Source of the DNA: Ekhidna lutea
GTDB taxonomy: Bacteria > Bacteroidota > Bacteroidia > Cytophagales > Cyclobacteriaceae
Direction: 5' to 3'
Assembly (NCBI RefSeq): GCF_900188325.1
Contig: NZ_FZPD01000002.1
Coordinates: 62,001-126,000, forward strand
DNA length: 64,000 nucleotides
A model generated the notes under the pieces. That model was not told where the DNA came from, made no database searches, and saw nothing but the letters and a program-made list of their open reading frames with translations. Both the position numbers and the translations under genes were made by a program. Positions 37,770 to 55,809 of this stretch are shown here, one piece after another (the first letter of the stretch is position 1; the number at the start of each line of letters is the position of its first letter).

Positions 37770-39203
37770 GTGATCTTAGACATAGCAATCTTTGCTACTT
37801 ACGTCGTTTTAGTTTTCCTCGTAGGCCTTTATTTCTACAGAAAAAACAAAACCAGTGATGACTATTATGTGGCTGGAAGAAATGTATCCAGCTGGCACAT
37901 TGGTTTATCAGTAGTAGCCACAGATGTTGGTGGAGGTTTTTCTATAGGACTTGGTGGACTCGGGTTTACCATGGGACTATCTGGCTCATGGTTATTATTT
38001 ACAGGTCTGATAGGCGCATGGATGGCTGCTGTTTGGCTGATCCCCAAAGTGTATCAGCTTCCGGGTATTCAAAAACTTACGACACTGCCACAAATCTTTG
38101 AATTCTTCTATGGGAAAAGGGTAGCTATTCTTGCCGGTATCATTACCACTATTGGTTATCTGGGATTTACCAGTTCTCAGATTATTGCCGGCGCAAAATT
38201 AGCCTCCGGGACGTTCGTAGATTTTTCATTTACCCACGCAGTTCTTGTCATGGGCATTGTAGCTGTAGGTTATACCATCCTAGGCGGCTTAAAAGCGGTG
38301 ATTTACACAGACACCTTTCAGTGGATCATTTTGATGGCAGGGCTACTTTTCGCAGGCATTCCTTTTGCATATGAAGCCATTGGCGGATGGGAAGCTGTAA
38401 ACGCCATTGTTAATAAAGACTACCTCACATTGACCAACCTGACATGGAAGGACCTGGTCAACTGGTCGGTGACTATTATTCCTATCTGGTTTGTAGGGAT
38501 GACCCTCTACCAGCGAATATTTGCCAGTAGAGGTGAAAAACAAGCAAAGAAAGCCTGGTTCATTGCCGGATTGTTTGAGTGGCCTTTAATGGCATTTCTA
38601 GGTGTTATTCTAGGTCTTTTTGGTAGAGTGGCTTACGAACAAGGTCTCTTTGAAGTAGTTGGATTTGCAGCAACTGCTGATATGGATCCGGAATTAGGTC
38701 TTCCGGTATTGTTGAGAACGGTTTTGCCTCATGGCCTCATGGGACTTGTTTTAGCAGCCTATTTCTCAGCGGTTATGTCAACAGCAGATAGTTGCCTGAT
38801 GGCTTCTTCAGGCTCATTCCTTACCGATATTCTGCGATTTAAGGATCGTGGTGCTGAGGATATGGACAAGAAATCGCTACGGGCATCACAGCTGGCAACT
38901 CTGGTCCTTGGAGTGATCGCCTTGATTATTGCGCTATCCCTTGAAAATGTGTTAGAGGCTATGCTATTTTCGTATGCCTTCATGGTTTCCGGTTTATTCG
39001 TACCCATTGTTGGTGCTTTCTATTGGAAAAAGGCGAATAAAGTAGGTGCTTTTGTCGCGATGATACTGGGAGGTCTAACAACTACGACCCTGACCTTGTT
39101 AGAAATACAATGGTTTGGGCTTGACCCCAATCTTTATGGAATAATTATCGCCTTAATCGTGTTTATTAGCATAGGATTAATTAAAAATCATACAAACAAA
39201 TGA
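37770..39203 (+). CDS. Sodium:solute symporter (SSS family)
   Basis: 477 residues with about 13 hydrophobic spans. SSS features are clear: RKNKTSDDYYVAGRNVSSW near the N-terminus, the glycine-rich GGGFSIGLGGLGFT, GYLGFTSSQIIAGAKLASG, and YFSAVMSTADSCLMASSGSF with the Na2-site Ser/Thr. It carries solutes with Na+ into the cell. The substrate is not readable from sequence, but the ATGA overlap with the acetyltransferase and the racemases and amidohydrolase downstream suggest an amino acid or N-acyl amino acid. Starts at GTG. Confidence 0.93.
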   Translation: MILDIAIFATYVVLVFLVGLYFYRKNKTSDDYYVAGRNVSSWHIGLSVVATDVGGGFSIGLGGLGFTMGLSGSWLLFTGLIGAWMAAVWLIPKVYQLPGIQKLTTLPQIFEFFYGKRVAILAGIITTIGYLGFTSSQIIAGAKLASGTFVDFSFTHAVLVMGIVAVGYTILGGLKAVIYTDTFQWIILMAGLLFAGIPFAYEAIGGWEAVNAIVNKDYLTLTNLTWKDLVNWSVTIIPIWFVGMTLYQRIFASRGEKQAKKAWFIAGLFEWPLMAFLGVILGLFGRVAYEQGLFEVVGFAATADMDPELGLPVLLRTVLPHGLMGLVLAAYFSAVMSTADSCLMASSGSFLTDILRFKDRGAEDMDKKSLRASQLATLVLGVIALIIALSLENVLEAMLFSYAFMVSGLFVPIVGAFYWKKANKVGAFVAMILGGLTTTTLTLLEIQWFGLDPNLYGIIIALIVFISIGLIKNHTNK

Positions 39204-39649
39204 ATATAACCTTTAAGAAATACTTCCCTGCTCAAACAGTAGGGCTATACGAAAAAGAAGAGATTGTTAGTTTCTTACATCGTTTCCTGGATGAATTTGG
39301 AGATCCGAAAGAAGACATCAGAAAGTGCATAGAATACGCATTAAATGCTGGTAAGCATCCTGGAGGTTTGATTTTATCCGCCTGGGATGGTGATACCATT
39401 GTAGGAGCTACTATTATCAATAAGACAGGAATGGAAGGCTATATTCCTGAAAATATTCTAGTCTATATAGCTACTCATTCAGAATATCGTGGAAAAGGTA
39501 TTGGTGGACAATTAATAGAGCGAGCTTTCAAGGAAACAGAGGGCGACATTGCATTACATGTTGAGCCAGAAAATCCGGCTAAAAAGCTTTATGAAAAACT
39601 TGGTTTCACCAATAAATACCTTGAGATGCGATGGAAGAGGGAACAATAA
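39200..39649 (+). CDS. GNAT-family N-acetyltransferase
   Basis: 149 residues. The acetyl-CoA-binding signature is EYRGKGIGGQLIERAFKE, preceded by the strand GATIINKTGMEGYIPENILVYIATH and followed by HVEPENPAKKLYEKLGFTNKY. It transfers an acetyl group to an amine; the acceptor is unknown. Its ATG overlaps the symporter stop (ATGA), and its end overlaps the M20 gene by 19 bases. The pairing with an N-acyl amino acid hydrolase suggests an amino acid or related amine. Confidence 0.9.
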   Translation: MNITFKKYFPAQTVGLYEKEEIVSFLHRFLDEFGDPKEDIRKCIEYALNAGKHPGGLILSAWDGDTIVGATIINKTGMEGYIPENILVYIATHSEYRGKGIGGQLIERAFKETEGDIALHVEPENPAKKLYEKLGFTNKYLEMRWKREQ

Positions 39650-40767
39650 AAGACCTTATTGATTTTCGTCTAGACTTACATAAACACCCTGAAGTATCAC
39701 AGAAAGAATTTGAAACGCAAAAGCGGATCATAAACTATCTGGACAGCAAAGGGATTAAAGCCTTAAAAGCAGGTGGAACAGGAGCCATGGTCATTATGGA
39801 TTCAGGGAAGGCAGGTAAAACCATCATGTTGCGTTCTGATCATGATGCTTTACCCATTCAGGAGATAAATGATTTCGATCATAAATCAAGTGTGGATGGC
39901 GTTTCACATAAGTGTGGCCATGACGGACATACGGCTATTATGTGTGGTGTGGCACAATACTTTCAATCTAACCCAATAAAGAAGGGCAAGCTTGTACTGG
40001 TATTTCAGCCTGCCGAAGAAAATGGTGAAGGAGCTAAGGCAATTCTAGCCGATGACAATTTCAACTTTGAGCCTGATCTTGTTTTTGCTTTGCATAATTT
40101 ACCTGGATATCCATTACATCAGATTGTGATTAAGGACAAAAACTTCACCACAGCGGCAAAAAGTATCATCATTAAATTGTCAGGCAAGACTTCTCATGCA
40201 GCAGAGCCTGAATTAGGTATAAATCCAGCCAGAGCTATTGCTGAATTGATCAATATGTTTGAGGCAGAAAGTCAGCCTGATTTGACTCGGGATGATTTTG
40301 CATTAGGATCGCCCGTCCACATCAATATGGGTGAAAAATCCTACGGAATCACCGCCGGATATGGAGAGGTACACTATACCCTCAGGACCTGGAATGGAAA
40401 GATGATGAAGGATTTTGCAGAGCGAGTAGTACGCCAAACGGAAGAAACAGCAAAAAATCATCAATTGAAGTTAGACATTAGCTGGACGGAGGAATTCGAC
40501 TCTAATAACAACCACCCTGATTCAATGAAGGAGATAAGAGCGGCTATTGAAGTGAATGGGTTTGATTCTACAGAACGAGAGCGACCGTTCAAGTGGGGGG
40601 AAGATTTCGGATTGTTCACACAAAAGTATCCGGGAGCAATGTTTGGAATTGGATCAGGAGATGATTGTCCGGCGCTTCATAATCCGGACTATGATTTCCC
40701 TGACGAAATCATTCCCACAGGTATTAAAATGTTTACCACGATCGTAGAAAAAGCGATTAATGAATAG
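39631..40767 (+). CDS. M20-family amidohydrolase (aminoacylase-like)
   Basis: 378 residues. M20D features are visible: LHKHPEVSQKEFETQ, RSDHDALPIQE, CGHDGHTAIMCG with the first metal ligands, FQPAEENGEGAK with catalytic Glu, and SHAAEPELGINP in the lid domain. These enzymes remove acyl groups from amino acids or related amides such as N-acetyl-L-amino acids and indole-acetyl conjugates. Whether it takes D- or L-substrates cannot be told. It lies between an acetyltransferase and a racemase. It starts with ATG 39631 inside the preceding gene. Confidence 0.92.
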   Translation: MEEGTIKDLIDFRLDLHKHPEVSQKEFETQKRIINYLDSKGIKALKAGGTGAMVIMDSGKAGKTIMLRSDHDALPIQEINDFDHKSSVDGVSHKCGHDGHTAIMCGVAQYFQSNPIKKGKLVLVFQPAEENGEGAKAILADDNFNFEPDLVFALHNLPGYPLHQIVIKDKNFTTAAKSIIIKLSGKTSHAAEPELGINPARAIAELINMFEAESQPDLTRDDFALGSPVHINMGEKSYGITAGYGEVHYTLRTWNGKMMKDFAERVVRQTEETAKNHQLKLDISWTEEFDSNNNHPDSMKEIRAAIEVNGFDSTERERPFKWGEDFGLFTQKYPGAMFGIGSGDDCPALHNPDYDFPDEIIPTGIKMFTTIVEKAINE

Positions 40768-41911
40768 TACATCATATATTGAGCTGAGCCGTGAGGCCTA
40801 TCAAAATAATCTTGATTTTTTGCGATCCTACATTAAAAAAGGAACCCGTATCTCTTCTGTTGTAAAAGGTAATGCTTATGGCCATGGGATTGATGATTTT
40901 GTCCCCATGGCTGAATCTATGGGGATAGACCATTTTTCTGTTAACAGTGCTGATGAGGCACTGGAAGTCTTAAAGGCAAGAACAAATCCTAAAACAGAAA
41001 TTATGATTATGGGATTTATTGCCAATGAAGACCTTTCATGGGCTATTGAAAATGAAATTTCATTTTTTGTATTTGAATTTGATAGAGTGCGAACGGCCAT
41101 TGAAATAGCCAGGTCGACCGGCAAAAAGGCACGTATTCATATTGAGCTGGAAACCGGAATGAATCGAACCGGGTTTGATCAGGAAGAAATTACACGTTTA
41201 ATCCCTTTGATTAAAGAAAATAGAGATAAGCTTGAAATTGAGGGGCTATGCACCCACTATGCAGGGGCAGAAAGTATAGCCAACTATCTCAGAGTGGAGG
41301 AACAAAAACGGGACTTTAAGCAGATGGCTGAACTACTGGCAGAGCATGACATAATTCCTAAAATGAAGCATACATGTTGTTCTGCGGCATCTATTCGCTT
41401 ACCAGATATGCATGAAGATATGGTAAGAATAGGAATACTTCAGTATGGTTTCTGGCCTAGCCGAGAAATATTTATAGAATACCTGAAAGGCAAAAAAGAC
41501 AAAACTGAACCCTTGCGAAGGCTAATTTCCTGGAAAAGTAGTGTTATGAGTGTAAAAAAGGTGGAAATGGGTGAGTTTGTCGGGTATGGAACCACATATC
41601 TGGCACAGCGAGACATGAAGATTGCAATTGTGCCGATCGGCTATTCGCACGGTTTTAGTCGGTCTCTTAGCAATACAGGTAGGGTGTTAATTAATGGATT
41701 CAGAGTACCTGTTGTTGGTATGGTCAATATGAACAATATGGCTATAGATGTTTCCGAGCTGGAACAAGTAAAAAAAGGAGATGAAGTAACTTTAATAGGG
41801 AAAAGCGGTGATGTAGAAATTAGTGTGGCATCTTTTGGCGAACTTAGTGATCAACTAAATTATGAGTTGCTCACACGTTTACCAACCAAAATCCCGAGAA
41901 TAATAAACTAG
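40760..41911 (+). CDS. Alanine racemase family protein, copy 1
   Basis: 383 residues. PLP lysine at residue 36 (SVVKGNAYGHG), catalytic Tyr276 in GEFVGYGTTY, and Arg136 in TGMNRTGF are all present, so the fold and centre are intact. Compared with common Alr, it has TCCSAASIRLP instead of NSAG and the motif ILQYGFWPS, features it shares with copy 2 at 53858. It interconverts L- and D-amino acids; alanine is the default, but the context (an ornithine-type racemase next to it) leaves broader specificity open. It overlaps the amidohydrolase by eight bases. Confidence 0.88.
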   Translation: MNSTSYIELSREAYQNNLDFLRSYIKKGTRISSVVKGNAYGHGIDDFVPMAESMGIDHFSVNSADEALEVLKARTNPKTEIMIMGFIANEDLSWAIENEISFFVFEFDRVRTAIEIARSTGKKARIHIELETGMNRTGFDQEEITRLIPLIKENRDKLEIEGLCTHYAGAESIANYLRVEEQKRDFKQMAELLAEHDIIPKMKHTCCSAASIRLPDMHEDMVRIGILQYGFWPSREIFIEYLKGKKDKTEPLRRLISWKSSVMSVKKVEMGEFVGYGTTYLAQRDMKIAIVPIGYSHGFSRSLSNTGRVLINGFRVPVVGMVNMNNMAIDVSELEQVKKGDEVTLIGKSGDVEISVASFGELSDQLNYELLTRLPTKIPRIIN

Positions 41912-41912
41912 C

Positions 41913-42983
41913 ATGGCTTACGTAGAATTATATAAAGACAAACTCAAAAAGAATTATCAATTCCTGGATAACGTATTTAAGGAAAATGATATCGCCTGGG
42001 CTGTTGTATCTAAGCTTTTGTGTGGTAACGAAAAGTTCTTAAAAGAAGTTATTGATCTGGGCACCAAGGAAATTTGTGATTCACGAATAAGTAACCTGGA
42101 GACGATAAAGAAACTTGATGAATCTGTTCAAACAGTATACATTAAACCACCGGCTAAAAGGAGTATTCCCAGGTTAGTCAAATATGCAGATGCAAGCTTT
42201 AATACTGAGTATAAAACCATCAAGTGGATCTCGGATGAAGCAGTAAAGCAAAACAAGAAACATAAGGTCATCATTATGATCGAGTTAGGTGATTTGCGCG
42301 AAGGAGTGATGGGTGATCATTTGATGGATTTCTATGAGTCAGTCTTTAATCTTCCAAACATTGAGGTGACAGGAATTGGTGCAAACCTGAACTGCCTGTA
42401 CGGGGTGATGCCTTCCGAAGATAAACTTGTTCAACTATCTCTATATGAGCAGCTTATAGAGGCTAAGTTCAACAGAAAAATCCCGTGGGTAACTGGTGGA
42501 ACTTCAGTGGTAATTCCACTGATTTTTAGAAAGCAAATCCCCGATGGAATCAATCATTTTAGAGTAGGTGAAACCCTGTTTTTCGGATTGGATTTGTTTA
42601 CCCAGGAAGTTGTTCCAGGAATGGAAGGAGATGTATTCAAGCTCTACTCAGAGATTATTGAAATCACAGAAAAACCAAAAATTCCAAGTGGGTATATGGA
42701 AACCAATCCATCAGGAGAAACTTTTGAAATCAATGAGGATGATTACGGCAAAACATCTTACAGAGCTATTCTGGATATTGGACTTTTGGATGTATCAGAA
42801 GACTTCCTGATACCGGAAGATGATTCAATAGAGATAACTGGTGCTAGCTCGGATATGCTTATTGTAGACCTTGGGGGATCCAGTGAAAAATACAAGGTAG
42901 GAGACCTTGTTTCATTTAAGCTCAAGTATATGGGGGCTCTTGGCATTTTCAACTCGGACTACATTGAGAAGCGCGTGGTTTAA
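41913..42983 (+). CDS. Alanine/ornithine racemase family PLP enzyme
   Basis: 356 residues, one base after the preceding racemase. PLP lysine at residue 34 (AWAVVSKLLCGN); EICDSRISNLETIKKL; IGANLNCLYGVMPSEDKL; VTGGTSVVIPL; and FRVGETLFFGLD are typical of the alanine/ornithine-racemase group (ORR-like), not of Alr. These enzymes racemise ornithine, lysine, arginine or alanine using a fold-III PLP domain. Adjacent paralogues in one operon imply two different substrates or a two-step use. Confidence 0.85.
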   Translation: MAYVELYKDKLKKNYQFLDNVFKENDIAWAVVSKLLCGNEKFLKEVIDLGTKEICDSRISNLETIKKLDESVQTVYIKPPAKRSIPRLVKYADASFNTEYKTIKWISDEAVKQNKKHKVIIMIELGDLREGVMGDHLMDFYESVFNLPNIEVTGIGANLNCLYGVMPSEDKLVQLSLYEQLIEAKFNRKIPWVTGGTSVVIPLIFRKQIPDGINHFRVGETLFFGLDLFTQEVVPGMEGDVFKLYSEIIEITEKPKIPSGYMETNPSGETFEINEDDYGKTSYRAILDIGLLDVSEDFLIPEDDSIEITGASSDMLIVDLGGSSEKYKVGDLVSFKLKYMGALGIFNSDYIEKRVV

Positions 42984-42999
42984 AATTCTAAATAGTTTC

Positions 43000-43007
43000 T
43001 ACTTTTG
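43000..43007 (+). promoter_or_regulatory. Bacteroidota -7 element upstream of the EF-hand gene
   Basis: TACTTTTG, 18 bases before the ATG at 43026. It suggests the EF-hand gene may also be transcribed on its own. Confidence 0.4.
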
Positions 43008-43025
43008 TGACTAAATCACACGCCA

Positions 43026-43604
43026 ATGTCAGCAGAATTTCAACGTAAAAAGCTCGGGTACTTCTTTCGTATTCTAGACCTAAATAGCAATAGCAGTCTT
43101 CAAATGGATGACTTCACTGAAATGGTGGAGAAAGTCCGTGTCACGATGGGGTATGATCCCGGTGACAAGGGTCACCAAAGAATCACAGATAAAGCTGTCA
43201 GGTTATTTAACTCCTTGGTAGATGATATTAAGCCCTTTAGTTTCAACCAGGTGACGGAAGATGAGTGGGTTGATTTCTTTCTGAAAAAAGTAATATTATC
43301 TAAAGACGAGGATATTCTGGACGAGTATAAAGAGCTGATTTTCAACTTCATGTTTGACTTCTTCGATCAAAACCGTGATGGATATATCTCTAAGAAGGAG
43401 TACGAAGATTTTTATGAAATTTTTGGTATAAACAAAGAATACTGTGACAAGGCATATCACTTGCTTGACAAGTCACAGAGTGGTAAGCTATCACGGTACG
43501 ACCTGATGGGAGCCGTTGAAGACTTTTTTGCTGCCAGTGACACCACATTACCAGGAAACTGGATTTTTGGTAATTGGGAATCAGAGCCGCATGCTGTTTT
43601 GTAA
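43026..43604 (+). CDS. EF-hand calcium-binding protein (calerythrin-like)
   Basis: 192 residues, no signal, so cytoplasmic. One canonical EF-hand is clear at about residues 117-128 (DQNRDGYISKKE). Others are degenerate: near residue 18 (DLNSNSSLQMDD) and near residue 151 (DKSQSGKLSRYD). The layout resembles the four-EF-hand sarcoplasmic/calerythrin group. It probably binds calcium as a buffer or sensor. It sits 42 bases after the racemases, so it may belong to the operon, but it also has its own promoter-like element. Confidence 0.82.
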   Translation: MSAEFQRKKLGYFFRILDLNSNSSLQMDDFTEMVEKVRVTMGYDPGDKGHQRITDKAVRLFNSLVDDIKPFSFNQVTEDEWVDFFLKKVILSKDEDILDEYKELIFNFMFDFFDQNRDGYISKKEYEDFYEIFGINKEYCDKAYHLLDKSQSGKLSRYDLMGAVEDFFAASDTTLPGNWIFGNWESEPHAVL

Positions 43605-45605
43605 TTAAGCTAAATCATCCAGGTACGCGTCATCTACCAAGTTGGGTAGCGTCACTTTAAGCTCTGGGGTTCGCTCCATTTCCCTTTTGATGGCGAATAA
43701 AGCTTCGTCATTTCTGGCCCAGCTACGTCTTGCTATTCCATTATTTACATCGTAAAAAAGCATGGATTTTAGCCTTCTATCTGCTTCATCAGAACCATCC
43801 AATAACATACCAAAGCCACCATTGATCACTTCGCCCCAGCCTACGCCACCGCCATTGTGGATAGAAACCCAGGTAGCACCTCTGAAGCTATCACCAATCA
43901 CATTTTGGATCGCCATGTCTGCAGTATATCGACTGCCATCATAGATGTTGCTTGTTTCTCTGAATGGTGAATCAGTACCGCTAACATCGTGGTGGTCACG
44001 ACCCAGCACGATAGGCGCAGAAATATCGCCTGACTTGATTGCTTGATTGAATGCCTCAGCTATTTTGGATCGGCCTTCTGCATCAGCGTACAGAATTCTG
44101 GCTTGTGAGCCAACCACCAGTCTGTTCTTTTCTGCTTCCTCAATCCATCGGATATTGTCCTGCATTTGCTGCTGGATTTCTGCCGGTGATTGAGATTTGA
44201 TCTCTCGCATGACCTCTACGGCAATCTGATCTGACTTTCTCAAATCTTCTGCTTTTCCGGATGTGCACACCCATCGGAATGGTCCAAACCCATAATCGAA
44301 ACACATAGGTCCAAGGATATCCTGAACATAAGAGGGATACTTGAAGTCGATTCCATTTTCAGCCATCACTTCACCACCAGCTCGTGAAGCTTCTAGCAAG
44401 AAAGCATTGCCATAGTCAAAGAAGTACGTTCCTCTTTCGGCATGCTTATTTACTGCAGCAGCATGTCTCCTCAGCGTTTCTTGCACATGCTCTTTGAATT
44501 TCTCAGGGTTGTTACGGATCAGGTCATTCGATTCTTCAAAGCTTAATCCGGCAGGGTAGTAGCCTCCTGACCATGGATTGTGAAGGGAAGTCTGATCTGA
44601 CCCTAGTTCAATAAGGATGTTTTCATCATAAAAACGTTCCCAAACGTCCACCACATTACCAACGAAAGCAATGGACACAACTTCCTCATTTTCCTTCGCC
44701 TTTTTTACACGATTTACTAGTTGGCTGATATCCTCGATAATCTCATCTACCCAACCTTGTTCATGACGTTTACGAGCAGCATTTGGATTGACTTCAGCAC
44801 ACACAGTGACACATCCAGCAATGTTTCCGGCTTTTGGTTGAGCGCCGCTCATGCCGCCAAGACCAGCCGTAAGGAAGATTTTACCGGCAGGAGAGACGCC
44901 TGAACCTAGTTTCTTGCGAAAGGCGTTCATCACGGTAATCGTTGTACCATGTACGATTCCTTGTGGCCCGATATACATATAAGAGCCTGCGGTCATTTGA
45001 CCATACTGTGTGACTCCAAGTGCGTTGAACTTCTCCCAATCATCCGGTTGTGAGTAATTTGGAATCATCATTCCATTAGTTACTACTACTCTTGGAGCTT
45101 CTTTATGCGACGGAAATAAACCCATCGGATGACCGGAGTACATGTGTAAGGTTTGCTCATCTGTCATTGTGGCTAAATACTGCATGGTGAGCAGGTACTG
45201 GGCCCAGTTTTGAAACACAGCCCCATTTCCACCATAGGTAATAAGTTCTTCTGGATGTTGGGCAACAGCCGGGTCCAGGTTGTTCTGGATCATTAACATG
45301 ATGGATGCTGCCTGTTTTGATTGAGCCGGGTACTCTTCGATCGGACGGGCATACATGTCATATTCAGGCATAAATCTGTACATATAGATCCTACCGAAAT
45401 CGTTGAGCTCTTGCCAGAATTCTTCTGCTAACTCTTTATGCCAGGTTGAAGGAAAGTATCTAAGCGCATTTCTTACCGCCAGCTTCTTCTCATCTGGAGA
45501 GAGTATGTCTTTTCTTTTAGGAGCCCTGTTTACTCCATCCTTTAATTTTTTTTTAGGTGGTAAGCTGTCAGGTATACCTTGAAGTATGTGTTCTTGAAAT
45601 GTCAT
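43605..45605 (-). CDS. hutU: Urocanate hydratase
   Basis: 666 residues, complete. NAD+-binding GLGGMSGAQ at 248-256, catalytic Cys447 in GPFRWVCTSG, and the surrounding YGNAFLLEASRAGG are conserved. It converts urocanate to imidazolonepropionate in histidine breakdown. Its stop is immediately adjacent to the stop of the convergent EF-hand gene (no spacer). hutH lies 79 bases upstream on the same strand. The next genes of the pathway (hutI, hutG) are not in the window. Confidence 0.97.
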   Translation of the reverse strand: MTFQEHILQGIPDSLPPKKKLKDGVNRAPKRKDILSPDEKKLAVRNALRYFPSTWHKELAEEFWQELNDFGRIYMYRFMPEYDMYARPIEEYPAQSKQAASIMLMIQNNLDPAVAQHPEELITYGGNGAVFQNWAQYLLTMQYLATMTDEQTLHMYSGHPMGLFPSHKEAPRVVVTNGMMIPNYSQPDDWEKFNALGVTQYGQMTAGSYMYIGPQGIVHGTTITVMNAFRKKLGSGVSPAGKIFLTAGLGGMSGAQPKAGNIAGCVTVCAEVNPNAARKRHEQGWVDEIIEDISQLVNRVKKAKENEEVVSIAFVGNVVDVWERFYDENILIELGSDQTSLHNPWSGGYYPAGLSFEESNDLIRNNPEKFKEHVQETLRRHAAAVNKHAERGTYFFDYGNAFLLEASRAGGEVMAENGIDFKYPSYVQDILGPMCFDYGFGPFRWVCTSGKAEDLRKSDQIAVEVMREIKSQSPAEIQQQMQDNIRWIEEAEKNRLVVGSQARILYADAEGRSKIAEAFNQAIKSGDISAPIVLGRDHHDVSGTDSPFRETSNIYDGSRYTADMAIQNVIGDSFRGATWVSIHNGGGVGWGEVINGGFGMLLDGSDEADRRLKSMLFYDVNNGIARRSWARNDEALFAIKREMERTPELKVTLPNLVDDAYLDDLA

Positions 45606-45684
45606 ATTCTTATCCTTTTAACCTCTGAGTAAACTGAGATGCTCACAGAGTTTTCAGAAGACTCTCAGCTATCTCTTGGTTATT

Positions 45685-47265
45685 TTAATAATTATCAAAC
45701 TCGTCACTAAATGATGTTTCCAGCGAAACACCTTCCGTTTTTGCAGTTTCGGTTGCAACAGTAATCAACTCCTTATTTTTCACCATCTCAATGGCAGTCT
45801 CCATGATTTCATTCATCACGCCATCTTTTGTAATGTGATCAATTTTAGATCTCACATGGTCGTGGATAGCAGCCATCACTTTGCTTGACTTTAACGGGCG
45901 ATGGAAATCCAAGGCCTGTGCAGCACAGAATATCTCCACACCAATGATCTTCTCTACGTTTTCAACAACTCTCAATGCTTTTCTTCCTCCTATGGACCCC
46001 ATACTCACATGATCTTCTTGTCCGAGTGAAGTAGGAATACTGTCTGCACTGGCAGGGAAACAAAGCCCTTTGTTTTCGCTTACCAGACCAGCAGTGGTAT
46101 ACTGAGGAATCATAAACCCGGAATTCGTTCCCGTTTCTTTAAGCAATAGTTTAGGCACTCCTGGTGTATCTCCTTCCAATGAAAGGTAGATTCTCCGGTC
46201 TGAGATGTTACCAACTTCCGCAGCTGCCAGACATGCATAATCAATAGGTAGCGCCATTGGTTGCCCGTGAAAATTCCCACCGCTAATGGTATGCTCAGCA
46301 CTGAACACGATAGGGTTATCGGTGACAGAGTTGATTTCCACCTCCAGCATTTCCTTGACGTGAAGCCATGCATTTCGCGAAGCTCCATGAACCTGCGGCA
46401 TACATCGAAGCGAGTACGGGTCCTGCACTCGTGCACAATTGGCGTGGGAGTGGACTACCTCAGAACCGTTTAGTAAATTGCTAATAAAGGCTGCAACATG
46501 TCTGTTTCCTTTAAAAGCTCTTACTTCATGCAGCTCTGGTGAGAATGGTTTGACAGAAGCTAAAAGCCCTTCAACCATCATTGACCCGGCAATGTCGGCA
46601 TGTACTAATACATTTTGTAATCGCTCAACAACCTTGACCGCATGCGCTGCGATGAACTGGGTGCCATTGATCAGACCCAACCCTTCTTTTGCTCCTAGTT
46701 CGATTGGTTCCAGCTTTTCAGCTTTCATCCATTCAGACGTTTTCACAAAAGCTCCTTTATGTCTCACCTTGCCTAATCCAATAAGCGGGAGAAAGAGATG
46801 TGAGAGAGGAGCAAGATCACCTGACGCGCCAACCGAACCCTGCTCCGGAACCAACGGTATAATATCATTATCAATGTGGAAGATGATGCGATCGATGGTT
46901 TGCTCTTGCACGCCCGAAAATCCTTTCGCTAACGCATGCACTTTCAGGATCATCATCAGTTTAGCCAGTACATCGGCAATTGGATCACCCAGGCCGACAG
47001 CATGACTCATCAGTAGATTTTTTTGAAGAGTACCGGTTTCTTCCTTTGAAATTTGTGTTGTGCACAGAGGACCAAAGCCAGTATTGATACCATAAACTGC
47101 CTTTTCGCCATCGGCAATGGTTTTTACATCATTTGCGCTTTTATTAACTGCGTCACGTGCCTTTGATGATAATATACCCTTGATTTTCCCCTCTGCTATC
47201 GCGATTGCAATACCAGCTGTAAGGTAATCTTCTCCGTAATGAAATGAATCAGGAAATGCTGCCAT
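45685..47265 (-). CDS. hutH: Histidine ammonia-lyase
   Basis: 526 residues, complete. The self-generated MIO cofactor arises from Ala147-Ser148-Gly149 in QGSVGASGDLAPLSHL; other conserved parts are YGINTGFGPL and GGNFHGQPMALPIDY. It removes ammonia from histidine to give urocanate, for hutU downstream. A tyrosine/phenylalanine-type specificity is possible in the family, but pairing with hutU settles it. The leader has a good -7 element. Confidence 0.96.
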   Translation of the reverse strand: MAAFPDSFHYGEDYLTAGIAIAIAEGKIKGILSSKARDAVNKSANDVKTIADGEKAVYGINTGFGPLCTTQISKEETGTLQKNLLMSHAVGLGDPIADVLAKLMMILKVHALAKGFSGVQEQTIDRIIFHIDNDIIPLVPEQGSVGASGDLAPLSHLFLPLIGLGKVRHKGAFVKTSEWMKAEKLEPIELGAKEGLGLINGTQFIAAHAVKVVERLQNVLVHADIAGSMMVEGLLASVKPFSPELHEVRAFKGNRHVAAFISNLLNGSEVVHSHANCARVQDPYSLRCMPQVHGASRNAWLHVKEMLEVEINSVTDNPIVFSAEHTISGGNFHGQPMALPIDYACLAAAEVGNISDRRIYLSLEGDTPGVPKLLLKETGTNSGFMIPQYTTAGLVSENKGLCFPASADSIPTSLGQEDHVSMGSIGGRKALRVVENVEKIIGVEIFCAAQALDFHRPLKSSKVMAAIHDHVRSKIDHITKDGVMNEIMETAIEMVKNKELITVATETAKTEGVSLETSFSDEFDNY

Positions 47266-50628: not shown

Positions 50629-51852
50629 ATGGCTAAATGTTTCGCACTCATGGGATGGAGTCTTCCCGTCATAGAAAGTATGCAAAAGACCGGAAAACCA
50701 TTTGTGGTGGTTTCCTTTCCCGACTTTGAACCATACGCCAAGGAGAATGACATTCCCTTTGTTCCTTATCAACTTGATGAGTGGAGCGATACCTCCAACT
50801 CACTGGATTTGGTAGAAAAATTAAATGCATATAATGCGGATGTTGCGGTCCCTTTATTTGAAGAAACTGTAGAGTGGGCAGGAGCACTAAATTCCATTTA
50901 CCGAAATGATCCTCGGGTACTTAACCGTGCCTTTTTGTTTAGAAATAAAGCCATGATGAAGCGAAAAGCTTTGATTGGTGGCTTGCGAGTTGGGTTGTTT
51001 GAAGAGGTTCACAATAAAGAAGGTGTCAAAGCTTTCATGAAACGATTGAATGAAGCCAACCTCCAGTTGGATGGTGAAGAAGATAGCTGGGTACATATAA
51101 AGCCTTTTGCTTCTGCTGGTACAGTAGGGCATAGACTATTAAAATCCATGAATCAAATTGATGAAGAGTGTGAGGATGGTGATTTTCCATGTCTTGCTGA
51201 AAGCCATCTTTCCGGAAGAGAGTTTTCATGTGAAGCATTTATACACGGTGGAAAAATCAAGTTCCTGAATATCACCGAGTATGTAAAACTGGGTTATTCA
51301 AACTTCATTCCGGAAGGGCATTACCTTGAATCCAAGCGTGATTTGATTTATAAGCATGTGCAGAAACTGGTAGACATCTTTGGTATTGAGTACGGGATGG
51401 TTCATCCGGAATGGTTTCTTACCGAAAATGATGAATTGAATTTTGGGGAGACAGCCTGTAGAATACCGGGAGGTCATATCCTGGAGCTTTGTGGCAAATC
51501 GTATGAATTTGATGCGCTGGCTGCCTTTGTCCAAATCCATGATCCTAGCCTGACCGATGAGGAATTAGCAGAAATCTTGCCTCCTGAAGGGTTTAAGCCT
51601 AAAAACTATCATGGAAATGTCATGATCTACCCTCATAAGAAGCAGTTTTCAAAACTTGAAATCCCTGAGGAGCTGAATAATGAATCATACTTTGTTGATC
51701 ATACGCTGGTACCTCCATTAAGCACTCAAAAGATCAGTGACGAGCGTGCAGGATTTGGAAACCACTTCGGTACAATCAATTTTAAAGGCGAAGATCCCGA
51801 CCGAATGACGGAGTTGCTTAAATACTACCAAAAGGTTGATTTTTACGTCTGA
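50629..51852 (+). CDS. Stand-alone ATP-grasp ligase, first gene of an uncharacterised operon
   Basis: 407 residues, no signal. An ATP-grasp fold is visible: an N-terminal Rossmann-like domain with VAVPLFEETVEWAG, an ATP-binding lysine in WVHIKPFASAGTVGH (Lys158), the acidic strand CLAESHLSGREFSCEAF (Glu191), and the metal site ELNFGETACRIPGG (Glu274, Arg278). Such enzymes couple ATP hydrolysis to amide or peptide bond formation between a carboxylate and an amine. The acceptor is unknown; with an alanine racemase and a papain-like protein in the same operon, a D-amino-acid-containing product is plausible. It is 23 bases from the next gene. Confidence 0.8.
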   Translation: MAKCFALMGWSLPVIESMQKTGKPFVVVSFPDFEPYAKENDIPFVPYQLDEWSDTSNSLDLVEKLNAYNADVAVPLFEETVEWAGALNSIYRNDPRVLNRAFLFRNKAMMKRKALIGGLRVGLFEEVHNKEGVKAFMKRLNEANLQLDGEEDSWVHIKPFASAGTVGHRLLKSMNQIDEECEDGDFPCLAESHLSGREFSCEAFIHGGKIKFLNITEYVKLGYSNFIPEGHYLESKRDLIYKHVQKLVDIFGIEYGMVHPEWFLTENDELNFGETACRIPGGHILELCGKSYEFDALAAFVQIHDPSLTDEELAEILPPEGFKPKNYHGNVMIYPHKKQFSKLEIPEELNNESYFVDHTLVPPLSTQKISDERAGFGNHFGTINFKGEDPDRMTELLKYYQKVDFYV

Positions 51853-51875
51853 ATATGTGTTATTAACGACCATTC

Positions 51876-53864
51876 ATGGAGATAACCAAAAATCAGACAT
51901 TCGAAAAATTTGAAGAAAGTTTCAAGGCTTTTCAAGAGGCATCTGATCTCACCAAAAGAGAGCATGCTTCAAAGCTTGCGAGCCAGATAGATATCCTGTC
52001 TTTAAGTGAAGATGGGATTTCCTATTTGTATAAAAGAAGTGTTGAATTAGATGAGCAGGGCCTGTTTTCCGGCACCTCCTGGGCTGAACCAACGAAGTTG
52101 ATACCAACTCTGGTAAAAGGTACTTTGCTTGCAGGTCATCCATCTTCCAGCTTTGAAATCGTTTCTGATCTTCGCTTGCTGGCATATGCCAAAGGAGCAG
52201 AATCTAATATGATTTCTCAGCCGGTAGCAAAGACACTTCTGGAGGAAGTATTGGTACACAACCTTGAATTTGCGCTCAATGATCTATCGGAAGATACCCG
52301 GCAAACCATGAGTGAGCGTGAGGTGAAGAAAGCTATCAACCTGTTTAGCTTCCTGCTATCAGAAACACCAATTGAAGGTATTTATGAAAAGTTGGCTCTG
52401 GAAGTAGATCTCATTTGTAGTCAGCGACCGGTGGAGACTCGAAAAGCACGAGAATTGATTCGACTTATAGATCAAAGATTCCAACCATCTGGTGAATCAA
52501 AGCATGATCAGTTGGTTCGTACATTTATTAATGCGCTCAAAGCACCAACGACCTTCATTGCCAAAGAACGATCTACGCCTGAGGCTTATATTGATTTTAT
52601 CCAGTCTTGCTCAGCTGATGAGTTGAAGTCAGAGGCTATTGAGATGGGCGAATCGATGGTCAGAACGGGGCTCGTTAGTCAATACCATGCGTACCTGCTT
52701 CTCTATCTGGTAAAGGACAATCACGCTTTGGTGCCAGCATGTCTCGGACTAAATGAACGGGGGAGTGCTGAATGGGAAAAGTTTAAAGACATTATTGTTT
52801 CATTGATCAGTGAAATTGTAACTCCGAACAATTATCAATGTATCTACGGACTAAGCTGGGTTTTGGGTCGAAACCTCTTGTCCAGACGTCCGGTCAGAGC
52901 CGGTTTGGAAAACTTAAGAAGAGCCAAAATAAACCCACAGGTTGAAAAAAGGATTCTAAAGTCTATTGATGATCCGGACAGCTCGGTGACAGCACTTCAA
53001 TATTTGCTTGGAGGTACATTGAAAGTTTTAGGTCAACCATTGGGTGTTGGGCAAGGAAACAATCCAACCTGCCAATCAGCACGAGGGATAAGCATGTGGA
53101 GTCAACATGCACCGGCTAAGCTGATCGATATGATTATTACGGTAGCCACTCAGAATAATTTGATCATGCGTTTTGAGAATCAGGATCTTGAATCGATCAA
53201 ATTGGGGAAAGGGCTTGTTGAAAAGCTGGATTTTAACCTGGATGTTGTTTCTGCAATTCTGGTTCCTCACCTGGATCGTATTTACAATGAGATGATGAAA
53301 CGATCCATGGGCCGTGCTGATGATCCACATCGATGGGTAAACCCTGCCATGTATGGACATTGGATTCCAGTCGGGTTTGCCTCCTGCTACGATTATACCT
53401 CGAATTCAATCCTTGATTTTGAAGGATTTATTCGGATTTTCTATGCAGCATTTCACCCACTTTATAATGATAATAATCAGGTGCTATACCCGATACCTGT
53501 TGGGATATATGTAACAAGCAATCATGGAGATATGCTTGGCTTTCACGCTATTTCTTTACTGCGGGTAGATAAGGACCCTTCAGGGGATTACCGAGCTTAT
53601 TTTTTAAACCCTAACAATGAAGGGCGTCAGGATTGGGGACAGGACATCAAACCTTCAGTTCATGAGAATGGAGAAAAGGCAGGTGAGTCATCCCTTCCAT
53701 TTCATCAATTTGCCGCCCGGATATATGCATTCCATTATAATTCGTTGGAAGCCACGGCTCACTTGCACCTTGTTGAAGATGAGTCCATTCAGGAAGTGAA
53801 AAAATTGGCACAGGAGAGCTGGGGTAAATCATACAACTGGATCGAACAACCTAAACTATGGTAA
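51876..53864 (+). CDS. Large protein with a papain-like Cys/His/Asn centre
   Basis: 662 residues, cytoplasmic by lack of a signal. The N-terminal 370 residues are helical (HEAT/armadillo-like, e.g. SEREVKKAINLFSFLL). The C-terminal 290 hold a possible cysteine-protease core: Gln393 and Cys399 in GQGNNPTCQSARG (six residues apart, as Gln19/Cys25 in papain), His557 in DMLGFHAISLLRV, and Asn578 or Asn580 in YFLNPNNEGRQDWG. I cannot name a family. By context it may cleave, transfer or form an amide involving the product of the ATP-grasp ligase. Its end overlaps the racemase start by seven bases. Confidence 0.62.
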   Translation: MEITKNQTFEKFEESFKAFQEASDLTKREHASKLASQIDILSLSEDGISYLYKRSVELDEQGLFSGTSWAEPTKLIPTLVKGTLLAGHPSSSFEIVSDLRLLAYAKGAESNMISQPVAKTLLEEVLVHNLEFALNDLSEDTRQTMSEREVKKAINLFSFLLSETPIEGIYEKLALEVDLICSQRPVETRKARELIRLIDQRFQPSGESKHDQLVRTFINALKAPTTFIAKERSTPEAYIDFIQSCSADELKSEAIEMGESMVRTGLVSQYHAYLLLYLVKDNHALVPACLGLNERGSAEWEKFKDIIVSLISEIVTPNNYQCIYGLSWVLGRNLLSRRPVRAGLENLRRAKINPQVEKRILKSIDDPDSSVTALQYLLGGTLKVLGQPLGVGQGNNPTCQSARGISMWSQHAPAKLIDMIITVATQNNLIMRFENQDLESIKLGKGLVEKLDFNLDVVSAILVPHLDRIYNEMMKRSMGRADDPHRWVNPAMYGHWIPVGFASCYDYTSNSILDFEGFIRIFYAAFHPLYNDNNQVLYPIPVGIYVTSNHGDMLGFHAISLLRVDKDPSGDYRAYFLNPNNEGRQDWGQDIKPSVHENGEKAGESSLPFHQFAARIYAFHYNSLEATAHLHLVEDESIQEVKKLAQESWGKSYNWIEQPKLW

Positions 53865-55012
53865 GACACTCATCCCGAATTGAACTCAGCCAGTCCTCGC
53901 TGACCAGCAACATCAATTTCATCAAAAAGAAGGTTGGAAAAGGGGTACGGATATCGTCCGTCGTAAAAGCCAATGCTTATGGTCATGGCATTGAAGAGTT
54001 TGTGAAAATGGCAGAGAAAGCTGGGGTGAACCATTTTTCAACAGCTTCTGCTTTTGAGGCTGAGACAGTATTAGAGGCTAAGTCCGATTCCAGTGACGTT
54101 ATGATCATGGGGATCCTGTATAGTGAAGACATAGGCTGGGCGATTGAAAACGAAATAGAATTTTATGTTTTTAATTATGATCGTTTATCGCTCGTCTTGA
54201 AAGAAGCACAAAAACTTGGGAAGAAGGCGAAAGTTCATTTAGAAGTAGAAACCGGCGCAAACCGAACAGGGTTGCCCGAAAGAGAGCTATCACCCTCATT
54301 GAGCTTTCTTAAAAAGTATCAGAATCACATTGAGTTCACAGGATTATGTACCCATTTTGGAGGGGCTGAAAGCTTTTCAAATCAATTCAAAATAGATAAA
54401 CAACACAAGAAATATAAAGAGTACTTAAAGCTGTGCAAGAAGAAAAGCCTGATGCCAAAGACTCGGCATATTGCATGCTCGGCTGCTGCACTTGCTTATC
54501 CAGACACAGTGTATGATATGGTCAGGATTGGCGTGTCTCAATATGGTTTTTGGCCCAGTCCGGATATCTACTACAAACACATACAGGATGCCAATAAATC
54601 AAACGGTGCTTTGAAAAGAATTTTTTCCTGGAAAACCGATGTAATGGATGTTCGGGATGTGGTCACAGGTGAGTTTATCGGATACGGTACCGCGTATCAG
54701 GCTACTCATGATATGAAGGTGGCGGTCATGCCGCTTGGCTACTCCAATGGATACCCACGTGCGCAATCCAACCGTGGGCATGTATTGATTAAAGGAAAGA
54801 AAGCACCAATTGTTGGACTGATAAATATGAACTTGTTTATGGTAGATGTTAGTCATATTGATGGAGTTGAGGTAGGAGAGGAAGTGGTGCTTGTGGGTAG
54901 GCAAAAAAATAATACCATCAATATTAGCTCATTTACCCAGGTAACTCAGTTGCTAAACGCTGAAATGCTAAGCAGACTTCCTGCTGCAATCCCAAGAAAG
55001 GTGGTGAAATGA
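53858..55012 (+). CDS. Alanine racemase family protein, copy 2
   Basis: 384 residues. PLP lysine at residue 37 (SSVVKANAYGHG), catalytic Tyr in GEFIGYGTAY, and Arg in TGANRTGL are intact. It is clearly paralogous to copy 1 (40760): the same WAIENEI block, YDMVRIG, QYGFWPS, and CSAA in place of the common NSAG. The two are therefore a subgroup apart from the cell-wall Alr. It overlaps the papain-like gene by seven bases and the coiled-coil gene by four (ATGA), so it is locked into this operon and probably supplies D-alanine or another D-amino acid to it. Confidence 0.88.
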   Translation: MVRHSSRIELSQSSLTSNINFIKKKVGKGVRISSVVKANAYGHGIEEFVKMAEKAGVNHFSTASAFEAETVLEAKSDSSDVMIMGILYSEDIGWAIENEIEFYVFNYDRLSLVLKEAQKLGKKAKVHLEVETGANRTGLPERELSPSLSFLKKYQNHIEFTGLCTHFGGAESFSNQFKIDKQHKKYKEYLKLCKKKSLMPKTRHIACSAAALAYPDTVYDMVRIGVSQYGFWPSPDIYYKHIQDANKSNGALKRIFSWKTDVMDVRDVVTGEFIGYGTAYQATHDMKVAVMPLGYSNGYPRAQSNRGHVLIKGKKAPIVGLINMNLFMVDVSHIDGVEVGEEVVLVGRQKNNTINISSFTQVTQLLNAEMLSRLPAAIPRKVVK

Positions 55013-55809
55013 GGCGATTGAGTAAAAACGAAAAACGACTACTAAAGCAATTGATTCGGAACCGAAGCGGAGCTACTTTCATTGATTTTCTGGAGGCTGA
55101 TTGGCCTGTCGGAAAATTTGATGTAAGCACATTTCAGCAAACCTTAAGTATTAAGGTTACGGATGATGAGCTACCTATAGCTATGCACCATATAGTGGAG
55201 CGGCTCAATCTGGTGAAACAACTTGAGGAAGAAGGATATATTACTCTCTGGGGTAAAATCAGAACCTCAGATAATACGAGAACTTGTGGTACTGCTTCGG
55301 AGGGATCTAACACTGTTTTTCTGCCTGATATTTCTGTTGCAACTGAGGTTTTAAAGTATGCCAATTATGAGATTGGGTTTGGAGCCTCACTGAAAGAATG
55401 GTCGAAACAAAACTTTCGAAGCAAGCCGCTCATGTCGTTTCGTGTCTTAGTTTTCATTTTGATAGCCATGCTGGCAGCAAATCTCATCTATCAAGCCAGA
55501 CTGATCCGTACCAGAGTGAGTCACGAGCATGAGCAGATTGTTGACAATAACAAAGAAGTACTTGAAAATCAGTTGTTAAGCAATCAGATTATTGACTCTC
55601 TTCAGCGGCAAAATAATGATCTAATGATTGTGACGGAACAGGTACGACAAAACACAGAGAATCTACAGGATATTGAAATGTTCTTACGTGAGCAGCAAGG
55701 GGCGTTTAGAAATATTGATGCGCAGACCCGTTATTTGAGGGAGCAAATGCATTTGAATCAAAAACTGCTTAAAAGATCAGATAGCTTATTGAATCGAATG
55801 ATTGAATAG
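55009..55809 (+). CDS. Membrane-anchored coiled-coil protein, last gene of the operon
   Basis: 266 residues. An N-terminal cytoplasmic part of about 140 residues, basic at the start, includes two cysteines and a short beta region. It is followed by one transmembrane helix (about 142-161, LMSFRVLVFILIAMLAANLI) and a long heptad-rich coiled coil (about 165-262) rich in Gln, Glu and Leu. The likely topology is N-in, coiled coil in the periplasm. It could anchor the system to the inner membrane or to the cell wall. No known family recognised. Confidence 0.65.
   Translation: MRRLSKNEKRLLKQLIRNRSGATFIDFLEADWPVGKFDVSTFQQTLSIKVTDDELPIAMHHIVERLNLVKQLEEEGYITLWGKIRTSDNTRTCGTASEGSNTVFLPDISVATEVLKYANYEIGFGASLKEWSKQNFRSKPLMSFRVLVFILIAMLAANLIYQARLIRTRVSHEHEQIVDNNKEVLENQLLSNQIIDSLQRQNNDLMIVTEQVRQNTENLQDIEMFLREQQGAFRNIDAQTRYLREQMHLNQKLLKRSDSLLNRMIE

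Follow-up and report, generated by a model that had tools for sequence, protein, structure and literature searches.

What is made by a bacterial operon that joins an ATP-grasp ligase to a papain-like protein, and to which molecule is the bond formed? This question is raised by four open reading frames in the window, the stretch of 64,000 nucleotides of Ekhidna lutea DNA analysed here. All of them lie on the forward strand, separated by +23, -7 and -4 bases, values that were recomputed and agree with those of the first-pass annotation. They encode an ATP-grasp amino-acid-ligase-like enzyme (50629..51852, 407 aa), a papain-like protein (51876..53864, 662 aa), a fold-type III PLP racemase with an altered substrate pocket, hereafter Alr1 (53858..55012, 384 aa), and a single-pass membrane protein, likely a coiled coil (55009..55809, 266 aa). 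The operon core consists of two of these four genes, those for the ligase and the 662-aa protein. The first-pass annotation knew the combination from no described pathway, and the libraries searched gave no named pathway either.

The ligase lies at the margin of the described families. Its match to Pfam PF13535 (E=3.9e-4, 20.5 bits) is below the gathering score of 27, and no curated NCBIfam ligase model was matched over its cut-off (BacD, 15.2 bits vs 850). The top NCBIfam matches, both far under cut-off, were PRK02186 (36.9 bits, in the ATP-grasp part) and PRK07206 (31.8 bits), neither of which is named as a peptide ligase. Against the PDB, the single sequence matched the L-amino acid ligase 4wd3 (E=8.3e-8), which we take to be RizA, and the ligase profile (A1) gave the same best match (E=8.9e-11), followed by the weaker 3vot (E=8.1e-5). 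The L-amino acid ligases RizA and BacD (ATP-grasp, EC 6.3.2.28) are thereby its best PDB sequence matches and its probable kin, although the ligase aligns only in part, the profile alignment with 4wd3 being weak and covering ~250 of 404 ligase profile positions, and although, unlike them, it consistently adjoins a papain-like gene. Residues K158, E191, E198, E261, E274, A276 and R278 were identical in all 23 ligases compared, and the metal/ATP motif ends in E-x-A-x-R in the ligase as in 4wd3. The nearest solved family is thus one of small-molecule amino-acid ligases, and not a known family with an unrelated substrate, an outcome that the first-pass annotation had considered adverse to its reading. 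No Ddl model was matched in Pfam or NCBIfam scans at E up to 1, in agreement with the earlier statement that Ddl is not in the operon. The product of RizA is given as Arg-X dipeptides in PMC9321006.

By sequence, the second core protein matched nothing in Pfam, NCBIfam or the PDB that would place it in a named family, its sole Pfam match (MbeD_MobD, E 0.12) being at chance level. Nevertheless, Q393, C399, H557 and N578 were identical in 25/25 aligned sequences, one further row having been left out owing to stops. The Gln stands six residues ahead of the Cys and is followed by the His and the Asn, which is the order and spacing of the Gln-Cys-His-Asn set in papain. Judged by residue conservation, these proteins form a papain-like family with putative papain-type catalytic residues, outside every Pfam and NCBIfam model. 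The predicted fold, a helical N-terminal part of ~380 residues followed by a C-terminal papain-like domain, backs this reading weakly. Indeed, the models of the whole protein (pLDDT 87.9) and of the C-terminal domain (86.4) are least certain in the active-site loop (391-397, beside the Cys, pLDDT <50 in the whole-protein model). The best 16 Foldseek matches of the C-terminal domain were calpains (highest probability 0.97, best E 1.8e-3, TM at most 0.42), and a viral structure library yielded nothing beyond weak papain-type and unrelated matches. The protein shares the Cys-His-Asn order and the position of the Gln with clan CA enzymes (calpain, staphopain, bleomycin hydrolase) and may share their fold, but it differs from them in being cytosolic by hydropathy, in its big helical N-terminal part and in the lack of a sequence match.

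Ligase and papain-like protein were found to be tightly associated. Scattered homologues would have spoken against a functional unit; instead, the two genes adjoin in 36/40 related loci, the other four being either cut by contig ends (three) or decayed (one). In a sample of 296 genomes of the phylum, the papain-like protein occurred in 4, the same 4 being the only genomes with a full-length ligase match. Pairwise distances of both proteins across 22 loci were correlated (r=0.87), with none of 2000 Mantel permutations as high. The earlier grouping of an amide ligase, a papain-like enzyme and a PLP racemase as a conserved unit is likewise borne out by adjacency across related loci. The pair, present in Bacteroidota, Gemmatimonadota, Bacillota and one Halomonas record, would define a pathway of its own, and the open-access literature gave no description of it among the matches listed. 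Neither a DAO-family D-amino acid oxidase, near the pair in just 2/6 Gemmatimonadota loci, nor a glutamine cyclotransferase, also in 2/6 (L029 by Pfam, L033 by clustering), qualifies as a general partner.

The explanation that we favour, though tentatively, is that two cytosolic enzymes together make a small amide or dipeptide from ornithine or a similar basic amino acid, and that this product includes a D-residue in Bacteroidota. This reading rests on the ligase/papain pairing, the conserved catalytic residues in both enzymes, the altered racemase pocket and the repeated adjacency of ornithine genes. By homology, the ATP-grasp enzyme would convert the carboxylate of an amino acid to an acyl phosphate and couple it to an amine, like the Arg-specific RizA. 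The papain-like enzyme would then form an acyl-enzyme with this product and transfer or cyclise it, and in Bacteroidota only, the racemase would provide a non-alanine D-amino acid, either D-ornithine or D-serine. We infer transfer, not hydrolysis, for the papain-like protein. A precedent exists in butirosin biosynthesis, in which the ATP-grasp ligase BtrJ and the papain-fold acyltransferase BtrH work as a pair. The same two enzyme types would act in succession here, but the 662-aa protein lacks a BtrH-family match in the Pfam scan, and among the neighbours of the operon, mostly compared only with one another, none was recognised as an acyl carrier protein. The papain fold of BtrH is documented in PMC2922099.

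Among the alternatives, the one that survives best, although we consider it unlikely, is a module of synthesis and recycling, in which the dipeptide or amide is the work of the ATP-grasp enzyme by itself, while the papain-like protein in the cytosol breaks it down once the need has passed, like the peptidase of an osmolyte or storage-peptide cycle. The NAGGN osmolyte operon of salt-tolerant bacteria comprises genes for an amidotransferase, a fused acetyltransferase-ligase and a peptidase. An ATP-grasp dipeptide synthetase stands there beside a peptidase-like gene, as in the pair described here, which differs in having a papain-like protein rather than a metallopeptidase and in its linkage to ornithine genes. 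The consistent pairing would suit recycling, and so would the fact that papain-fold structural relatives are mostly peptidases, a trend that was weaker in another structure search; however, in a peptidase with no task beyond recycling, a conserved helical N-terminal part of ~380 residues and so close a pairing would be unexpected.

As for the role of the product of the favoured two-enzyme route, a compatible solute or a nitrogen reserve in saline habitats is a guess. In its most far-reaching form, which as a whole we hold to be rather improbable, the system would be previously undescribed and spread by horizontal transfer among Bacteroidota, Gemmatimonadota, Bacilli and Halomonas adapted to salt. 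The ligase and a new papain-like transferase would turn ornithine into a compatible solute of peptide type, which in Bacteroidota would owe its resistance to proteases to a racemase dedicated to ornithine (or serine). Should the product prove to be a solute, the few known peptide osmolytes would gain an ornithine-based D-peptide.

The contribution of a D-amino acid depends on Alr1. This protein exceeds the cut-off of TIGR00492 (282 bits vs 168) and carries both the PLP-Lys and the catalytic-Tyr motifs, as do alanine racemases and VanT serine racemases. However, the specificity-gate Tyr of alanine racemase is replaced in 22/22 Alr1 sequences (N in 19, Q in 2, A in 1), and the substrate loop reads NMN in place of CMD; the gate Tyr is retained in the MurF-Alr of the same genome and in 5/5 sequences of a second racemase, Alr2. 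This Tyr (Tyr354 of G. stearothermophilus) confers alanine specificity according to PMC4517790, and alanine, the substrate assumed in the first-pass annotation, is therefore not upheld. The same annotation was right that a racemase is present, but its extension of a D-amino acid role to the whole system was not confirmed: the racemase follows the pair in 23/40 related loci, in Bacteroidota loci only, and 17/40 loci have no adjacent racemase (one, L031, being cut exactly there), so that the core function need not involve a D-amino acid.

In the solved serine racemase 4ecl, our reading of the alignment places Asn at the gate position, as in most Alr1, and D-Ser therefore fits as well as D-Orn. 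This opens a second alternative, in which the racemase makes D-serine, the product is a D-Ser dipeptide unrelated to ornithine and the Arg neighbours are incidental. The vanT-G serine racemase model also gave 233.6 bits on Alr1, though under its cut-off of 460. We regard this explanation as distinctly doubtful, since 4ecl keeps the CMD loop and Arg genes stand beside the operon in three separate arrangements.

These neighbours, found next to the operon in some relatives and hence beyond the window, escaped the first-pass annotation. A complete ornithine set, ArgB-ArgD-ArgC-ArgJ (named by curated models in L072 and elsewhere by similarity to the L072 genes), adjoins the operon in 5/24 Bacteroidota loci from approximately four lineages, on the operon strand in L071, L072 and L088 and divergently in L018 and L032, which are ~80% identical in DNA. 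In 4 Cyclobacterium loci, a longer arginine operon lies divergently one gene away. Two ArgC over cut-off were found in 8/17 operon-bearing Bacteroidota genomes, and among the relatives ArgJ occurred in 6/8 genomes with the operon vs 1/51 others, associations for which the Fisher values ignore phylogeny. No Arg gene of the set was present in the stretch compared in 15/24 Bacteroidota loci, some with short flanks, and none of the 17 other loci has the set. Across the phylum, ArgJ was rejected as a marker for the operon (2/4 genomes with it vs 118/292 without; a third operon genome holds only a contig-edge ArgJ fragment). Neither ArgJ nor an ArgC over cut-off was found in the genome that contains the window, and ornithine would therefore need another source. 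This genome has three PF00491 ureohydrolase-family matches; the arginase family, present in 17/17 genomes, was discarded as that source, as the family includes other ureohydrolases. Together, the ornithine linkage and the racemase pocket narrow the product question to a short substrate list.

A possible companion cluster lies upstream on the same strand (37770..42983, +), encoding a Na+/solute symporter, a GNAT protein, an M20 amidohydrolase, Alr2 and an Orr-like ornithine racemase (41913-42983; 315.5 bits with the Orr model NF040742, under its cut-off of 480). Strong Orr-like matches occur in 8/8 operon-bearing relatives and in 15/59 overall, which speaks for the favoured ornithine route. A link between a GNAT gene near the Bacilli loci and the companion one was rejected (best match E=6e-4 over 53 residues).

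The reading first proposed for this DNA, that a D-amino acid is put on or taken off a protein, peptidoglycan or another polymer at the membrane, now appears quite improbable. The racemase within the operon and the fourth gene fit it, the 266-aa product having one hydrophobic segment near residue 142 and a coiled coil suggested by the earlier reader and by a sub-threshold Laminin_I match in Pfam. This gene, however, is not the defining member it was taken for but accessory and sporadic, most loci lacking it and relatives following Alr1 only in L071, L017, L020 and L024 (4/40 loci). Moreover, none of the three enzymes has a signal-peptide-like start or a membrane helix by hydropathy, which tells against a membrane-held acceptor, as do the match to a free-amino-acid ligase and the missing Ddl model.

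A peptide-like antibiotic or inhibitor from a mobile mini-cluster, which would suit the patchy spread (8/59 relatives, counting the window's genome, and 0/9 other genomes of its genus), a 47-kb contig within a four-contig genome, the Halomonas record named as a plasmid and the BtrH-type papain-fold transacylases mentioned in PMC2922099 for other biosynthetic neighbourhoods, is very doubtful, as the flanks, whose genes were mostly compared only with each other, showed no shared gene for tailoring, export or self-resistance.

No riboswitch naming an amino acid was detected at the operon in 8 Bacilli loci or in window positions 36000-58000. A c-di-AMP riboswitch was found in L038, ahead of a downstream gene that presumably serves potassium uptake.

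The operon consists of four forward-strand ORFs encoding an ATP-grasp ligase (50629-51852), a papain-like protein of 662 residues (51876-53864), the Alr-type racemase Alr1 (53858-55012) and a membrane protein (55009-55809). The coordinates in the first-pass annotation, with gaps of +23, -7 and -4 bases, were recovered from these ORFs. The proposed identities of the first and third genes held up in Pfam and PDB sequence searches and against NCBIfam, respectively, and the single hydrophobic segment of the fourth protein agrees with its membrane assignment.

Forty related loci were compared: 9 from same-phylum genomes, 26 named genome contigs from a pattern scan, 4 from genomes of the class holding locus L036, and a Halomonas record, the sole match among 72,556 plasmid records. 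The ligase and papain-like genes are adjacent on one strand in 36 loci, two of which (L030 and L032) carry a broken papain-like gene; in the remaining four, L024, L028 and L041 are truncated at contig ends and L092 (9718-11413) is a decayed copy in which only ligase fragments and a shortened papain-like gene persist. Distances among the ligases and among the papain-like proteins correlate (r=0.87, 22 shared loci). The papain-like protein was found, the window's genome counted, in 8 of 59 relatives and in 4 of 296 phylum genomes, and was absent from all nine other genomes of the genus within the 59. Ligase matches above 740 bits were exclusive to the same 4 of 296, and the other 55 phylum genomes with any ligase match reached at most 64 bits. 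Among 200 genomes of L036's class, five encode the papain-like protein (centre genome counted, one copy shortened). A racemase gene directly follows the pair in 23/40 loci, all from Bacteroidota taken broadly, so as to cover a Balneolia MAG; none was seen next to the pair in the other 17, one of which, L031, is cut off where the papain-like gene stops. Relatives of the membrane protein occur in four of the 40 (L071, L017, L020 and L024). The literature matches listed contain no description of the pair, which the 2009 amidoligase survey, outside the search, could include. BtrH-type and new papain-fold transacylases are mentioned for other peptide-synthesis neighbourhoods in the available text of PMC2922099, and the text of a graspetide paper (PMC8939145) has no term beginning 'papain'.

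In a profile search against PDB, the ligase matched the L-amino acid ligase 4wd3 (E 8.9e-11), followed by 4dim (1.4e-5) and 3vot (8.1e-5); the best NCBIfam matches, PRK02186 and PRK07206, were both far under cut-off. All 23 ligases have Ala two residues past E274, where many ATP-grasp enzymes carry Asn. The profile alignment places Ala at the same position in 4wd3, which we take to be RizA. The available part of PMC9321006 describes RizA as specific for Arg-X dipeptides.

The papain-like protein had no match in NCBIfam or PDB sequences, a single chance-level Pfam match (E 0.12) and a best E of 0.14 in the PDB profile search. Q393, C399, H557 and N578 are identical in 25/25 sequences, three second Bacilli copies included, and Q393 lies six residues ahead of C399, as in papain. 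The AlphaFold model is two-part and confident (pLDDT 87.9), though it drops below 50 in the Cys-flanking loop 391-397. With the whole model, Foldseek gave only weak matches, mixing papain-type peptidases with unrelated proteins; with the C-terminal domain (pLDDT 86.4), the best 16 matches were calpains, again weak (probability at most 0.97, E at least 1.8e-3, TM at most 0.42). A papain fold is likely. The protein starts without signal-peptide-like features. Of the six named Bacilli loci, L035, L038 and L040 encode a second, diverged copy that retains the catalytic residues, and in L038 the downstream genes presumably resemble an amino-acid ABC transporter.

Alr1 retains the PLP-lysine and catalytic-Tyr motifs. 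According to the available text of PMC4517790, a Tyr at the inner gate (Tyr354 of the G. stearothermophilus enzyme) governs the specificity of alanine racemases. The gate position, assigned from alignment to solved racemases and a further alignment of our own, holds Asn in 19, Gln in two and Ala in one (the window) of 22 Alr1, a count that omits L016 (broken frame) and L041 (outside the set). The gate Tyr is present in the genome's own MurF-Alr fusion and in 5/5 Alr2, the second Alr-type racemase; a Cys-Met-Asp loop is replaced by Asn-Met-Asn in all 22 Alr1 and all five Alr2. Since Alr1 has lost the gate Tyr and its loop is altered, alanine is, from sequence, unlikely to be its main substrate. 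In our reading of the alignment, the serine racemase 4ecl also has Asn at the gate, so D-Ser is still a candidate product.

In locus L072, the operon's neighbours include ArgB, ArgC and ArgJ above curated cut-offs and ArgD above its subfamily cut-off. By similarity to these genes, this ornithine set (ArgB-ArgD-ArgC-ArgJ) adjoins the operon in 5/24 Bacteroidota loci (window counted), downstream on the same strand in L071 and L072, upstream on the same strand in L088 and divergently in L018 and L032. These three arrangements represent about four lineages, given that L018 and L032 share about 80% DNA identity. Four Cyclobacterium loci have a longer arginine operon, divergent and one gene off. Its ArgG is above cut-off, its ArgC, ArgD and ArgB were assigned from similarity, and a further protein narrowly misses the acetylornithine carbamoyltransferase cut-off (282.9 vs 288). 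The other 15 Bacteroidota loci showed no Arg gene in the stretch covered, the window's proteins did not match the four ornithine-set proteins, and the set is absent from all 17 loci outside Bacteroidota; the ArgD-like aminotransferase of L091 is one that we take to resemble RocD. ArgC above cut-off is present twice in 8, once in 6 and not in 3 of 17 operon-bearing Bacteroidota genomes, the window's being among the three. ArgJ was found in 7/59 relatives, six of them among the eight with the operon. At phylum scale ArgJ (above cut-off in 120/296 genomes) showed no association with the operon (2/4 with vs 118/292 without), a third operon-bearing genome having only a contig-edge fragment.

A possible companion cluster (37770-43604) encodes a sodium/solute symporter, a GNAT protein, an M20 amidohydrolase, Alr2 and a protein resembling the ornithine racemase Orr (these five, 37770-42983), then an EF-hand protein. 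The Orr-like protein scores 315 bits, under the Orr cut-off of 480. Orr matches at E <=1e-10 occur in 19/59 relatives and strong ones (>450 bits) in 15, including 8/8 with the operon (Fisher 2.9e-6, a value that ignores phylogeny). Symporter and GNAT genes adjoin Orr in all nine relatives examined, of 14 with strong matches. On the minus strand, two genes at 43605-47265 presumably resemble urocanate hydratase and histidine ammonia-lyase.

The combined results favour a cytosolic pathway in which ornithine, or a basic amino acid like it, would be converted into an amide or dipeptide. Acyl-phosphate chemistry would come first, followed by a Cys acyl-enzyme, and in Bacteroidota only, a D-amino acid other than alanine is probably among the building blocks; we infer this step order, the product and the role of the pathway. 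Organism names hint at a salt connection: the carriers include Marivirga, Cyclobacterium, Indibacter, soda-lake MAGs and Halomonas, presumably from saline habitats, with at least one likely exception, Lysinibacillus endophyticus. The available text of PMC1224877 counts an acetylated, neutral dipeptide of glutamine among osmolytes and has no term beginning 'ornithine', and that of PMC12838360 includes an ornithine racemase among those predicted for a hypersaline-sediment strain of the Flavobacteriales.

Two Gemmatimonadota loci have a FAD-dependent oxidase (DAO family) near the core pair (L031, 207-1343; L027, 5722-6849). In the Halomonas locus L097 (14631-18323), genes that we take to resemble mechanosensitive channels adjoin the pair. 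Finally, in L094 (13264-17878) the operon lies on a 47-kb contig (C4) of the four-contig genome G022, possibly a plasmid.
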